Source: Halegenticoccus tardaugens (GTDB taxonomy: Archaea; Halobacteriota; Halobacteria; Halobacteriales; Haloferacaceae). Taken from it: 64,000 nt of DNA. Location: positions 124,001 through 188,000 of the forward strand of contig NZ_SDIC01000005.1 in assembly GCF_004116405.1 (NCBI RefSeq). The letters run 5' to 3'. The position numbers were made by a program, and so were the translations under genes. The notes beneath the pieces were generated by a model. That model was not told where the DNA came from. It did not search any database and was given only the letters and a program-made list of their open reading frames with translations. Of this stretch, positions 6,365 to 32,118 are shown piece by piece; position 1 is the first letter of the stretch, and each line of letters starts with the position of its first letter.

Positions 6365-7694
6365 CTATCGACCCACGAAGGCAACTTGCGGGTTCGTGCG
6401 CTCCTCGTTGGAACAAGAGCGTGGTGACTCTGACCAGTCGTGGTCGTTCCACTTGAGGCGCACAGGCCGTTCCATCGGCCGTGCTACGTCCGTCTGCCGT
6501 CTCAGGAACGTCTTGCTTGCCGTGAGGTCCGCGTGGCCCTCGAAGTGGTTCGAGAGACCAAAGGTCTCTCGTCATCACGAAAGGCGCTCCGCGCCTTTCG
6601 AACGACCGCACGGACACGTCAGCGTGTCTCGGTGGCGCGTCGTCCGGTCGGTCGACCCGCACTGCGGACACTCTTGGCTTGTCCACGCTTCCGAGCGAAC
6701 TTCGACCGTCATACCGTACTCCTCGGCGGTACACGCGAGTCGGTCGATGAACGCTCGGAACGTCCAGAAGTTGTGCGTCTTGGCGTTCGCTTCGACCGAC
6801 CAATGCGTATCGAGTACGTCCGTTAACGCCCCGACGTACACCGTGGAGACGCCTTCGGCGTGCAACCGTTCGATAAGGTCGCGGGCGAGTGCGTCTTGGG
6901 CGTGGTCGCGGCGTCTCGTCCGTCGTCGGTACAGCGAGCGTATCCGGTGACTGCTGTACCGGCCGTCGTCCAAGAGCGACTGCAACCGGGCGATTTTTCG
7001 CGTCGTCTCGCGGAACCGCTCGAACAGGTCGCGTCCTTCGTACAGCAGTTGCGTGCCGGTCGTGGTCGTACAGGCGACGAGGTTGTTCGCACCAATATCC
7101 AGCGCGGCGGTTTCGTCCGCCAGTGGGTGTGCCAGTCGAGAAGTGTCGATAGTGACTGGCTGAAAGGCCCTGAATGCCTGTGCGTTCTCGTCGTAGTACA
7201 GTTCTAACCGGCCCTGTTTGTCGTACTCCTTCCAGTTGGGGTCGCCTCGGACTTCGACCCGGAGGCGTTCCTGTCGTCCAAGCCCGTACTCGTCTTTCAG
7301 GTCGTGGCCGACGAGAATTTCGAGCCGGGAGTATTCGCCCCACTCGACGGAGTACGACGTGTTTCGGATGTACGTGCGGAGTTCGCGGCCGTCCTCGACG
7401 TTGCCCCAGAAGCCGGGCTTGCCGTTGGCTTCGCCCTTCTTTTGGGCGTAAAGAACGATCGCCACGCTTCGCGGTTCTTGCGTTCGATTTGCTGAACGGT
7501 CGAAGCCCCGAGCGTGCCGCCATAGCGCCCGCGATACTCGCTGCTGTCTCACACGTGTCTGGGTCGGCGTAGTTCTCGCGGCGCTCGTAGTTGATTTCGT
7601 TCCAGAGTGCGGCAGAAGCGTCCAACAGGCGCTGAAGCAACTCCTCGTCCGCGTCGGACTGAGGAACCACGTCGAACGTGTTGGTCCGCTTCAT
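6365..7694 (-). pseudogene. tnpB: tnpB RNA-guided endonuclease, broken (copy 1)
   Basis: A TnpB-family reading frame disrupted several times. The N-terminus ([27 protein letters not shown]) is followed by a frame change near 7560, a TGA where relatives have Trp, and a second frame change before [11 protein letters not shown]. The body then reads well: Ruv[28 protein letters not shown], and the zinc finger CPQCGSTD...LTCPCG. A 60-bp double hairpin with two in-frame TGA codons (6545-6604) splits CPCG from [10 protein letters not shown], the RuvC-III motif. Where RuvC-II usually has Glu (V-E-D-L), this copy has Gly (V-G-A-L). The frame otherwise continues to the TAG at 6365. No intact protein can be made. 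Confidence 0.88.
6545..6604 (-). repeat. 60-bp double-hairpin insertion inside tnpB copy 1
   Basis: Compared with the other TnpB copy, exactly 60 bp are inserted between the codons for CPCG and FEGHADL. On the tnpB coding strand it reads CGTT, a 23-base hairpin CGAAAGGCGC-GGA-GCGCCTTTCG, TGATGA, a 21-base hairpin CGAGAGACC-TTT-GGTCTCTCG, and AACCAC. The layout and opening CGTTCGAAA are shared with the 60-bp insertion at 30384-30443. Confidence 0.85.
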
Positions 7695-7747
7695 CAACTA
7701 CTTCTTGTACCCGAAAGCTAATGTATGTTTGTATTTTGTCTGTCTGT

Positions 7748-17234: not shown

Positions 17235-17400
17235 AGCCCCCTTCCTCGCCGAGCGCCGAAGGCACGAGTAGGGAGGGAAGACAGCGTTCACAAGAGCTTC
17301 GCTCTTGTGTGCGAACGAGACGCTGCGCGTCTCGTCAACGTCGCGAGAAGCCGTAGGCTTCTGGTTGGCAGCCAGAACGCTTCCGCGTTCTGGCGACGCC
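17235..17400 (+). repeat. left end of an IS200/IS605-type element with four hairpins
   Basis: A terminal palindrome (CCCCTTCCTC...GTAGGGAGGG) is followed by four hairpins at 17289-17309 (loop TTC), 17315-17335, 17346-17362 and 17372-17393. The same series, almost base for base, lies on the other strand at 31762-31876, upstream of the tnpB element there. The hairpins form two pairs of about 60 bp each. Confidence 0.85.
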
Positions 17401-24437: not shown

Positions 24438-24830
24438 ATGCCTCGTGGATACAGCAGGGAATAGACTTCAATCCACAACCTGCACTACCATTTCATCTAG
24501 TGCCCGAAGTACCGCAAGGCAGTGCTCACCGACGACGTACACGACCGTCTCAAAGCTCTCATCCATGAAAAGGCGGACGAACTCGGCGTGGCCATCATCA
24601 GTTTGTCCATCCAGCCCGACCACGTTCATCTGTTCATCGAGGGCAACCCGAAGCTTGCACCGAACAAAATCATCCAGCAGGTCAAAGGCTACTAGTCGCG
24701 CGTTCTCCGCGATGAGTTCGGAAGCATGGGTTTGCCGTCGGTGTGGACCCGAAGCTACTTTGTGTCCCCTGCCGGTACAGTGTCGGACGAAATCATCGAG
24801 GAATACACCGAGGCGCAAACAGGCCAATGA
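24438..24830 (+). pseudogene. tnpA: tnpA with three in-frame TAG codons
   Basis: A single frame of 131 codons encodes the whole Y1 transposase: MPRGYSRE, TSIHNLHYHFI, CPKYRKAVLTDDVHDRL, QPDHVHLFIEGN (HUH motif) and [21 protein letters not shown]. It is interrupted by TAG at codons 9, 21 and 76. The second TAG replaces the Trp of the VWCPKYR-type motif, and the third follows KGY, where Trp is common, so TGG to TAG changes explain at least two. There are no frameshifts. The start is inferred from the conserved MPRGYSR-type N-terminus. Confidence 0.85.
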
Positions 24831-26121
24831 AGCGCGTCAACACCTTCCGAGTCGTTCCCCGTTCCGACGCGGACGTTGAGTGCCTTCGGCGGGTGTTGGA
24901 CGCTTCGGCAAGCCTTTGGAATCAGTTGAACTACGAGCGTCGGCAGAATTTCACCGACCCAGAAATCGACAAGTCGGTATGGGAAACCGAGGACTACCGC
25001 AAACAGTATGTCGGAGTTCTCGGCAGTGCGATGGCTCAACAGGTGATTCGAAAGAACGACCAAGCGTGGCATTCGTTCTTCAAGCGCAAGGAATCCGGCG
25101 AGAAGTGAGCGGACTTCTCGGCTACTGGGGCAACGAGGAAGAAAGGCGCGACCTTCGGTCGTACATCCGCAGCGACCAGTACCGACTTCGGTGGGCTACC
25201 GGCAGCAGCAACCAGTCAATACTCGAAATATCGGTCGGCAAAGACCTGAAAGACGAGTTCGACATCGGGCACCGCGAACGGCTCCGCTTCGAAGTGCGAG
25301 GCGAACCGAAGTGGACGGGCGACCAGTGTCAACTCGAACTTTTCTACGACGAGCGTTCCGACCAATTCAGGGCCATCCAACCTGTTAAAAACTGTTCTCG
25401 GCAGGATTCACCATTAGTCGACGAAACGACTGCTCTGGACGTGGGCGCGAACAACATCGTCGCGTGCAGTACGACCACTTGCAAACAGTTCTTGTACGAA
25501 GGGAGGGACGTGTTCACCCACTTCCGCGAGACGACGGAACGAATCACCAAGTATCAGTCGCTCGTCAATCGTGACGAAGGACGGTATTCGACCAACAGGA
25601 TACGGCGACTGTATCGGAAGTGAATGGCCCGGCGAGACCATGCGATGGACGCACTCGCCCGCGACTTGATGGAGCGCCTTCACGTCGAAGGCGTTTCGAC
25701 CGTCTTCGTCGGCGACCTCACGAGTGTTCTCGAAACCCACTGGTCGGTCGAAGTAAACGCGAAAACGCACAACTTCTGGGCGTTTCGCGCGTTCATCAAC
25801 CGGCTTGCATACACAGTCGAGGAATACGGTATCACCGTCGAAGCACGGTCGGAAGCGTGGACCTCCCAAGAGTGTCCCGACTGCGGCGAACGCGACGAGA
25901 CTGTTCACCACCGCGATACGCTCATGTGTCCGTGTGGCTTCGAGGGCCACGCGGACCTCACGGCGTCAGAGACGTTCCTGAATCGGTAAATGAGCAACGA
26001 AGTAGGGGCGATGGCACGTCCCGTACGCCTCAAGTAGGACGCCCACACCTGGGCGGAGTCACCACACTCTCGTCCGAACGAGATCCGCCCGCACCAGCAA
26101 AAAACCTTCGTCGGCGCTTAG
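24827..26121 (+). pseudogene. tnpB: tnpB RNA-guided endonuclease, broken (copy 2)
   Basis: The start overlaps the tnpA stop (ATGA). [20 protein letters not shown] runs to [10 protein letters not shown], where the frame shifts at about 25105. The next segment carries SGLLGYWGNEEERRDLRSYI and RuvC-I ALDVGANNIVA. A TGA at 25621 interrupts RRLYRK and [15 protein letters not shown]. The zinc finger [22 protein letters not shown] and Ruv[12 protein letters not shown] follow. A TAA, a TAG and a final TAG at 26121 break the tail. As in copy 1, the expected RuvC-II Glu is Gly (VFVGDL). Copy 2 lacks the 60-bp insertion and so defines the uninserted site. Confidence 0.87.
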
Positions 26122-30287: not shown

Positions 30288-31551
30288 CTATCCCACCCTC
30301 CCACTCGGGCTGACGCCATCGCTCTTGAAGGTGGGGCTTTCTGTTTCCACGACGCGCTTAACAGATTTGGACGTATCCACAGGCGTTCGAAAATCACTAC
30401 GTGATTTTCGCAGCCCCGCAGAAACGCGAAGCGTTTCTGAGGACGTTGATTCAGAGCGTCCCGCTCCTCACCGCTTGATACCGCGAAACAGAATATTCTA
30501 CGCCGCGTTCGCGTCTCTATCCGCCTCAAACCCACACGCCGGACACGAGTGTTCACGCACCCACAGCGGCTTGTCAGCCGAAACGCCGCACGACGCACAC
30601 TCTTTGACCCTCCCTCTCGGGTTCACGGCGACGAAGTACGTTCCTTCGCGGTCGCACTTGTATTCGAGCATCCGAAGGAACGTTCCCCACGCCGCGCCCG
30701 CCCGATTTCGAGAGTTGCCCGGTAGTTCGACCAACCCTTTCGCGTCCAAGTCCTCGACCGTCAAAAGGTCGTACTCGTGGGCGTAGTAGTTCGGGAGCTT
30801 GTGCAGGAAGTCCCAGCGTTTCTGTTTGAGGTCAGCGTGTCGCTCGGCCACGACTCGACGCTGGTTCTCCAAATTTGCAGCGCTGTGTACTTTGCGTGAG
30901 GGGTTGCGTTGAACGCGTTCCAACCGTTCGCGCTCGTCGGATAGGTTGAGCGACTTGACCGCCGTACCATCGGTGTCGTAGGCGTACTTGAGAATCCCCG
31001 CGTCGATGCCGACACACTTCTCGGGTTTCTCCGGTGGGTCGTCGGGAGTCTCGACGCCGAGGATGGCGTACCACTTGCCAGTCGGTTCCTGCTTGACCGT
31101 GACGGTCTTTATCTCGGCGTCGTCGGGGAGGTCACGGTAGAATGTGATGGGTATCTCACCGAGTTTCGAGAGCCACAGTTGCGTCCGCCCGCTCGTGTTC
31201 TTGAGTTTGAAGCCGGATTGGCTGTAGGTGAAACTGTGGTATTCGCCTGGTGCTTTCCATTTGAGGGTGCCGACGCGGTAGCCGTTCTCTTTGCGCCCCG
31301 AAGCGCCGGAGGTTGTCGTACAACCGCTGAACGGCTTTCTGAAGAACTTTCGAGTGAACGTGTTTCAGGTCACTCCACCACTTCTTGAGACTCGGCAGGA
31401 GTTTCTGCTCGGAGTACGCCGAGGTGTTGTCAGTTCGGTTGAGTCAGTGGAGGAAGTGGTTGTAGACCTGCCTACAAGTATCAACAGTCCACGCTAACTG
31501 CTCTGCGAGCGCGTCGGACGGTCGGAGCCGATACCTGTAGTTGTAGTTCAT
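30288..31551 (-). pseudogene. tnpB: tnpB RNA-guided endonuclease, broken (copy 3)
   Basis: Starts MNYNYRYRLRPSDALAEQLAWT, with an in-frame TGA after HFLH and a frame change in the NLRRFG region. The catalytic body is well kept: CVGIDAGILKYAYDTDG (RuvC-I), LLTVEDLDAKGLVELPG with the RuvC-II Glu present, and the zinc finger CASCGVSAD...CPACGFEADRDANAA (RuvC-III). After DANAA a TAG replaces Trp and a TGA follows GIKR. A 60-bp double hairpin (30384-30443) is inserted in frame near the C-terminus. The tail runs to a TAG at 30288, directly at the element end. Confidence 0.87.
30384..30443 (+). repeat. 60-bp double-hairpin insertion inside tnpB copy 3
   Basis: On the plus strand it reads CGTT, a 23-base hairpin CGAAAATCAC-TAC-GTGATTTTCG, CAGCCCCG, a 21-base hairpin CAGAAACGC-GAA-GCGTTTCTG, and AGGA, followed by a second CGTT. 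Removing it restores the tnpB tail across GAATCAACG and CCTGTGGATACG. The insertion is a multiple of three and keeps the frame. It shares length, layout and opening CGTTCGAAA with 6545-6604. Confidence 0.85.
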
Positions 31552-31761: not shown

Positions 31762-31876
31762 CGTCGCCAGAACGCGGAAGCGTTCTGGCTGCCAACCAGA
31801 AGCCTACGGCTTCTGGTGACGTTGACGAGACGCTGCGCGTCTCGTTCGCACGCAAGAGCTTCGCTCTTGTGAACGC
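31762..31876 (-). repeat. four-hairpin left-end module of element copy 3
   Basis: Hairpins at 31767-31788, 31796-31816, 31825-31845 and 31853-31869. Read on the minus strand the order and stems match 17289-17393 almost exactly. They form two consecutive pairs of about 60 bp, each pair resembling the 60-bp insertions inside tnpB. Confidence 0.85.
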
Positions 31877-32118
31877 TGTATCCCCTTCCTCAACGAGCGA
31901 CTGAAGGGAGCGAGTAGGAAGGGGCCTAAGCACCTGGATTTAGGAAAATAACAAGAAGGGCTAAAAATGTTACGAGATACACAGCGATGTGAGAGAAAGG
32001 GTAAAATATGTGCTCCTATCTGGAGAAGGCCTGGAAGGACGACAGAGCCGACGAGTAGCCTCTATCCTAAGAGACAGAAGATCCAGACGCCGGCTACGTT
32101 TTTGAGATGCTCCACTTA

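Follow-up and report, generated by a model that had tools for sequence, protein, structure and literature searches.

A 60-bp double-hairpin insertion in a haloarchaeal tnpB gene belongs to a widespread, apparently mobile and structure-conserved family of small elements

The stretch of DNA analysed here, which we call the window, comprises 64,000 nucleotides of Halegenticoccus tardaugens (positions 124001-188000 of its contig, in a genome of 4.89 Mb). Copy 1 of a tnpB gene (6447-7697, minus strand) is a pseudogene with a frameshift near position 7550, and downstream of that frameshift it contains a discrete 60-bp element, designated type A, at positions 6546-6605 on the minus strand. The element has the layout TCGTTCGA-stem-TCGTGATGACGA-stem-TCGAACCA: hairpin 1 (6578-6600, minus strand) consists of a perfect 10-bp stem with a 3-nt loop, hairpin 2 (6551-6571, minus strand) of a perfect 9-bp stem with a 3-nt loop, and between them lies the conserved spacer TGATGA (6572-6577, minus strand), which is present in 37 of 41 units and which here supplies two stop codons, TGA TGA, in the TnpB frame. 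Copy 2 of the gene (24827-25990, plus strand), also a pseudogene, has no insert and at 25927 reads TGTCCGTGTGG^CTTCGAGGGCCACGC, where the caret marks the point of insertion and the site itself is TGTCCGTGTGG^CTTCGAG. Each of the three tnpB genes that we examined in the window, copy 2 and the gene at 30468-31551 among them, is a pseudogene with stops or frameshifts.

An earlier, sequence-only reading of this DNA had proposed that copy 1 carries a 60-bp double-hairpin insert that copy 2 lacks, and wider comparison bears this out. The closest TnpB matches are all haloarchaeal; of 80 named relatives (at most 92% identical), 39 allowed the site to be scored by pattern, and in every one of these it is uninterrupted, for example as GTGCGG^CTTCGAG, or as GTCCGTGCGG^CTTCGAGG in Natrarchaeobius (L199). 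Comparison with GTGCGG^CTTCGAG defines a unique 60-bp insert, TCGTT...AACCA, which falls between the G and the C. The length given in the earlier reading was correct, but its position, 6545-6604, is one base off; read on the minus strand from 6604 to 6545, copy 1 gives CGTT, a 23-nt hairpin, TGATGA, a 21-nt hairpin and AACCAC, likewise 60 nt. The insert had also been described as in-frame. Its length is indeed a multiple of three here, but the two stop codons interrupt the TnpB frame; units range from 55 to 66 bp in length and most copies seen are non-coding, and as a label for the element "in-frame" is misleading.

A type C double-hairpin unit, also of 60 bp, lies at 30384-30443 (plus strand; 25.3 bits with the covariance model introduced below), just downstream of an unrelated tnpB pseudogene (30468-31551, minus strand) that belongs to the insertion sequence carrying the unit. 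This unit had been placed inside the gene and credited with the same length, start and hairpin sizes as the type A insert; there is a 60-bp unit near an unrelated tnpB, but it starts about 25 bp past the expected stop, and its spacers measure 8 and 4 nt, against 6 and 6. The insertion site is CACAGG^CGTTGATTC, with a 4-nt ambiguity (CGTT), and 20 relatives of this tnpB in the same genome have either a comparable 60-bp unit or none at one exact position. In a low-GC relative (G006) the corresponding position is occupied by a type A unit, and the 30384 copy is therefore best read as a diverged member of the same element family. The left end of the insertion sequence (31766-31877, plus strand) and a second copy of this end (17283-17394, minus strand) each hold four tandem hairpins, which seem to form two consecutive double-hairpin units with CGTC/GACG and CGTT/AACG ends. 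In the left end the second unit (31818-31877) is of type B, a further variant, and scores 31.2 bits; the second copy of the end has a type B unit at 17283-17342 (34.9 bits).

A blastn search of the host genome, which was read in the stretches surrounding hits, returned 21 matches to the unit, and comparison of 700 bp of flank on either side showed unrelated contexts that are homologous over the unit only. With a covariance model built from 10 copies of this genome, about 24 distinct units were found there; the window copy scores 87.5 bits and its reverse strand 43 bits, the unit being nearly strand-symmetric. A scan of this kind across haloarchaea had been proposed as a check in the sequence-only reading, and of the 79 haloarchaeal genomes scanned, 61 had matches at E<=1e-6. 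A single genome had as many as 46, but such counts overstate the number of units, since most units, as imperfect inverted dimers, match on both strands. When 148 genomes sampled across the phylum were scanned, the model was positive in 23, all of them haloarchaea, with zero matches in the roughly 124 non-haloarchaeal genomes. A search of viral contigs for the exact boxes returned none.

The boxes TCGTTCGA (5'), TCGTGATGACGA (centre) and TCGAACCA (3') are nearly invariant across the class while stems and loops change, and the ends of the unit form imperfect terminal inverted repeats, TSGTTCGA. In 26 units of equal length 98.2% of cells are paired, with changes on both sides in 10 of 19 pairs; none of 500 shuffles reached the observed pairing and no slid register came near it. 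Among 41 units with perfect hairpins, stem 1 takes 18 different sequences and stem 2 takes 19, while the boxes are the same. The stem compensation that had been noted at five pairs is thus real and far wider, and the stems are under structural and not sequence constraint. The same stem modules occur in either hairpin position, and a given stem is found with loops that are mutual reverse complements (GAA/TTC, GGA/TCC), as if whole hairpins flip; such a loop flip separates the window copy from a sister that is 88% identical to it (L021). Identical stems that bear a loop triplet in one or the other orientation (GGA/TCC, GAT/ATC, GAA/TTC) were seen at window positions 6551-6600, at L021:2029-2091, in the pair L041/L043 and in the pair L123/L129.

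Exact empty sites are found beyond TnpB as well. For units of two genomes, the two flanks put together correspond to uninterrupted sequence elsewhere: the junction at L109 is identical to a paralogous repeat of the same genome (L138) and near-identical to two more (L158 and L162). Over 3 kb, L121 is orthologous to a locus of a sister species in the same genus (L145) from which exactly 60 bp are absent; at a second orthologous pair the unit present in L130 is absent from L148, with other differences around the site. The exact empty sites show no target-site duplication, and the base that follows the unit varies, as expected of target DNA. Sixty sites yield the target consensus (C/T)G-N-N-G^C-G, or YGNNG^CG, with G(-1) in 56, G(-4) in 51, C(-5) in 43, C(+1) in 50 and G(+2) in 43 of the 60. 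Within non-coding repeats the unit is inserted in either orientation. Comparisons within and between genomes show mobility, by insertion or precise excision, together with target specificity and structural constraint, all as read from sequence. The sequence-only reading had regarded the insert as a mobile, structure-conserved mini-element, a claim strongly supported by the class-wide copies, the covarying stems and the exact empty sites; the absence of empty sites or of further copies would have counted against it, but empty sites and further copies were both found.

Units of the host genome are located in tnpB genes, in subterminal parts of IS605-type elements and in a repeat family of about 430 bp. 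Many copies lie in palindromes of IS605 elements and PATEs, and others in intergenic repeats of TnpB-poor genomes (0-2 TnpB matches in G017, G078 and G071, against 80 in the host); the element is not specific to TnpB. A CCTCGGGG^CTTGACCCCGAGG hairpin is split by the unit in G056 and at L047, L070 and L077, and in G017, G071 and G020 the unit sits within hairpin-rich intergenic repeats. The ~430-bp family is dispersed and non-coding (L009-L015, L024, L025), holds the unit at an internal position and has many copies on IS-rich contigs. We also observed a larger intergenic repeat with the ends CTCGAAAGCCCCCGC and GCGGCCCCTTTCAGTCCCACCC that is common to different haloarchaeal families (L111, L123, L126 and L129 in G017; L113-L125 in G071). 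At four loci (L019, L020, L022 and L023) two left and two right unit flanks occur in all four combinations, which suggests exchange at the unit.

In our search for a mobilising enzyme, Y1 transposases of the IS200 type were detected in 44 of the 79 genomes; none was found in eight genomes with at least 10 matches, including G017 (42) and G078 (46); G040, G051 and G071, likewise rich in units, also have none. The number of units correlates weakly with that of Y1 genes (rho 0.20, p 0.07), and no unit or half-unit was present within 1.5 kb of the 30 Y1 genes checked. We rejected a Y1 transposase as partner, as many rich genomes lack one and none adjoins a unit. An IS110-type DEDD recombinase was rejected as the mover, being absent from the host genome, G017, G020, G071 and most rich genomes, and for the same four genomes its absence led us to reject the unit as a non-autonomous element of IS110/IS1111 type. 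A search for IS91-type Y2 transposases gave zero matches, as did its control search. Within 1.5 kb of units, the only genes to recur as neighbours were those for TnpB, seen in three genomes, and reading frames that pass through the repeats themselves. Copy number does not follow Y1; the mobilising enzyme would be either a Y1 that mobile elements bring in transiently or an enzyme of another kind.

Several other explanations merit consideration. The hairpins could be ordinary parts of the TnpB gene or of IS605 ends, such as right-end or guide-RNA structures, with no separate element involved. Several weak model matches do adjoin tnpB 3' ends, and the 30384 unit has been inherited with a tnpB subfamily; nevertheless, we regard this explanation as highly improbable, since the site at 6545 is empty in every scorable relative, genomes that have 0-2 TnpB hits carry identical boxes, homology across families ends at the ends of the unit, and exact empty sites are found outside IS elements. 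For type A the empty sites already refute it. It is also conceivable, though we think it improbable, that ancient insertions have since spread passively, through homologous recombination and by being carried along within larger repeats and IS elements. The embedding of many copies in larger repeat families (the ~430-bp family and the repeats of G056, G020 and G017) is in keeping with such spread, but the unit occupies different exact positions of larger repeats, empty paralogues and one empty orthologue exist, and one target consensus recurs across unrelated contexts.

A site-specific tyrosine or serine recombinase, recognising the inverted boxes in somewhat the way that an integrase uses folded attC, deserves more weight, even if we consider it rather unlikely. 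The strong YGNNG^CG specificity without target duplication, the several rich genomes that lack Y1 and the mosaic of left and right unit flanks in the host genome, which suggests recombination at the unit, would all fit such an enzyme. Against this, no recombinase gene recurs beside units, IS110-type recombinases are missing from the host and most rich genomes, and known att sites do not resemble a pair of separate hairpins whose stems are free to vary. Finally, the unit might work as RNA, in the form of a terminator, a processing signal or a ribozyme, and its stable hairpins, together with the resemblance on inspection of TGATGA to box C or to a stretch of the hammerhead core, could be taken in this sense. 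We give this very little credence, as the unit scores on both strands and, within non-coding repeats, is found in both orientations. TGATGA as part of a hammerhead or of a box C/D RNA was itself rejected (the hammerhead C3 position is G, box D is absent and the two strands are symmetric), and Rfam returned no family match at the locus.

We consider it probable that the unit is a non-autonomous haloarchaeal mobile element of about 60 bp that is moved as single-stranded DNA by an enzyme acting in trans. Such an enzyme would fold one strand of the element, read the boxes beside the hairpin feet, and excise and insert the element as single-stranded DNA, as we infer by analogy with IS200/IS605 and REP transposases; box sequence and stem complementarity alone would matter for movement. 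The order box-hairpin-box-hairpin-box, without duplication, parallels the ends of IS200/IS605 elements, although the unit is nearly strand-symmetric and the ends of IS608 are not. Replication or repair may pass through the folded palindromes, as is suggested by the loop triplets that flip and the stems that are used again, and such a process would also keep the palindromes perfect. A bolder proposal, which we put forward tentatively and hold to be possible rather than probable, is that these are haloarchaea-wide minimal elements known by their structure and three short boxes, and that their mover is an undescribed host-encoded or transient enzyme, neither Y1 nor IS110-type, in what would be a REPIN-like system in archaea.

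The boxes, the target site and the empty sites provide a defined, countable element for haloarchaeal small mobile repeats, whose mobilisation has been called "enigmatic" (PMC3119063), and the covariance model finds it in most of the haloarchaeal genomes tested. The combination of fixed boxes and free stems makes the dependence of movement on structure directly testable. The units also matter to those who annotate haloarchaeal TnpB genes and guide RNAs, as they interrupt genes and their 3' ends. A literature search that included the box sequences found no such haloarchaeal element described beyond those of PMC3119063.

Among known systems, the likeness to the in-frame palindromes of Rickettsia drawn in the sequence-only reading is not supported: unit length ranges between 55 and 66 bp, the other copies examined are mostly found in intergenic repeats or in non-coding parts of IS605-type elements, and we rejected an RPE-like in-frame element because the two in-frame stop codons break translation of the host gene. 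The CGTC-tagged REPs, which include Rickettsia RPE-4 and RPE-6, are bacterial single hairpins with 4-5 nt loops (PMC3733652). They share with the unit a short CGTC-like tag (CGTT here), a CCA-like tail and the lack of a known dedicated transposase (PMC3733652), whereas the unit has a fixed two-hairpin form, 3-nt loops and a TGATGA spacer. The REPINs of bacterial REP-RAYT systems consist of two inverted palindromes with a conserved sequence at the hairpin foot and have many dispersed copies (PMC3116915, PMC6006769). The unit likewise joins two inverted hairpins with conserved feet and is dispersed in many copies, but it is haloarchaeal, has no associated RAYT-type (Y1) gene and has stems that vary freely between copies; only the IS200-type subclass of Y1 has been seen in archaea (PMC6006769).

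Closer to hand are the haloarchaeal PATEs, which have near-terminal palindromes, show no target duplication, are too short to code and include 52-bp terminal-only forms; they are without inverted repeats at the termini and have IS605-like ends (PMC3119063). The unit shares the palindromes near its termini, the lack of target duplication and the small size. It differs in having inverted boxes at both ends, which place it outside the definition of a PATE, and it inserts into PATE-like hairpins (G056, L047, L070, L077). SMR-A of Haloquadratum walsbyi is short and non-coding, makes no target duplication, and has terminal inverted repeats that show no relation to known transposons; it is often found inside IS605-type elements, PATEs and near-terminal palindromes, and its mobilisation was described as enigmatic in 2011 (PMC3119063). 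SMR-A is about 110 bp long and the SMR-B element HqIRS41 80 bp, with identity within a type commonly above 95% (PMC3119063). The unit, too, has inverted terminal repeats, no target duplication and no coding capacity, and many of its copies, though not all, split palindromes or sit in IS605-type elements as SMR-A is described to do (PMC3119063). Set against the published description of SMR-A, however, the unit is shorter (55-66 bp), variable in its stems, class-wide and also present outside IS elements. We file it with the small, duplication-free mobile repeats, set apart from SMR-A by description.
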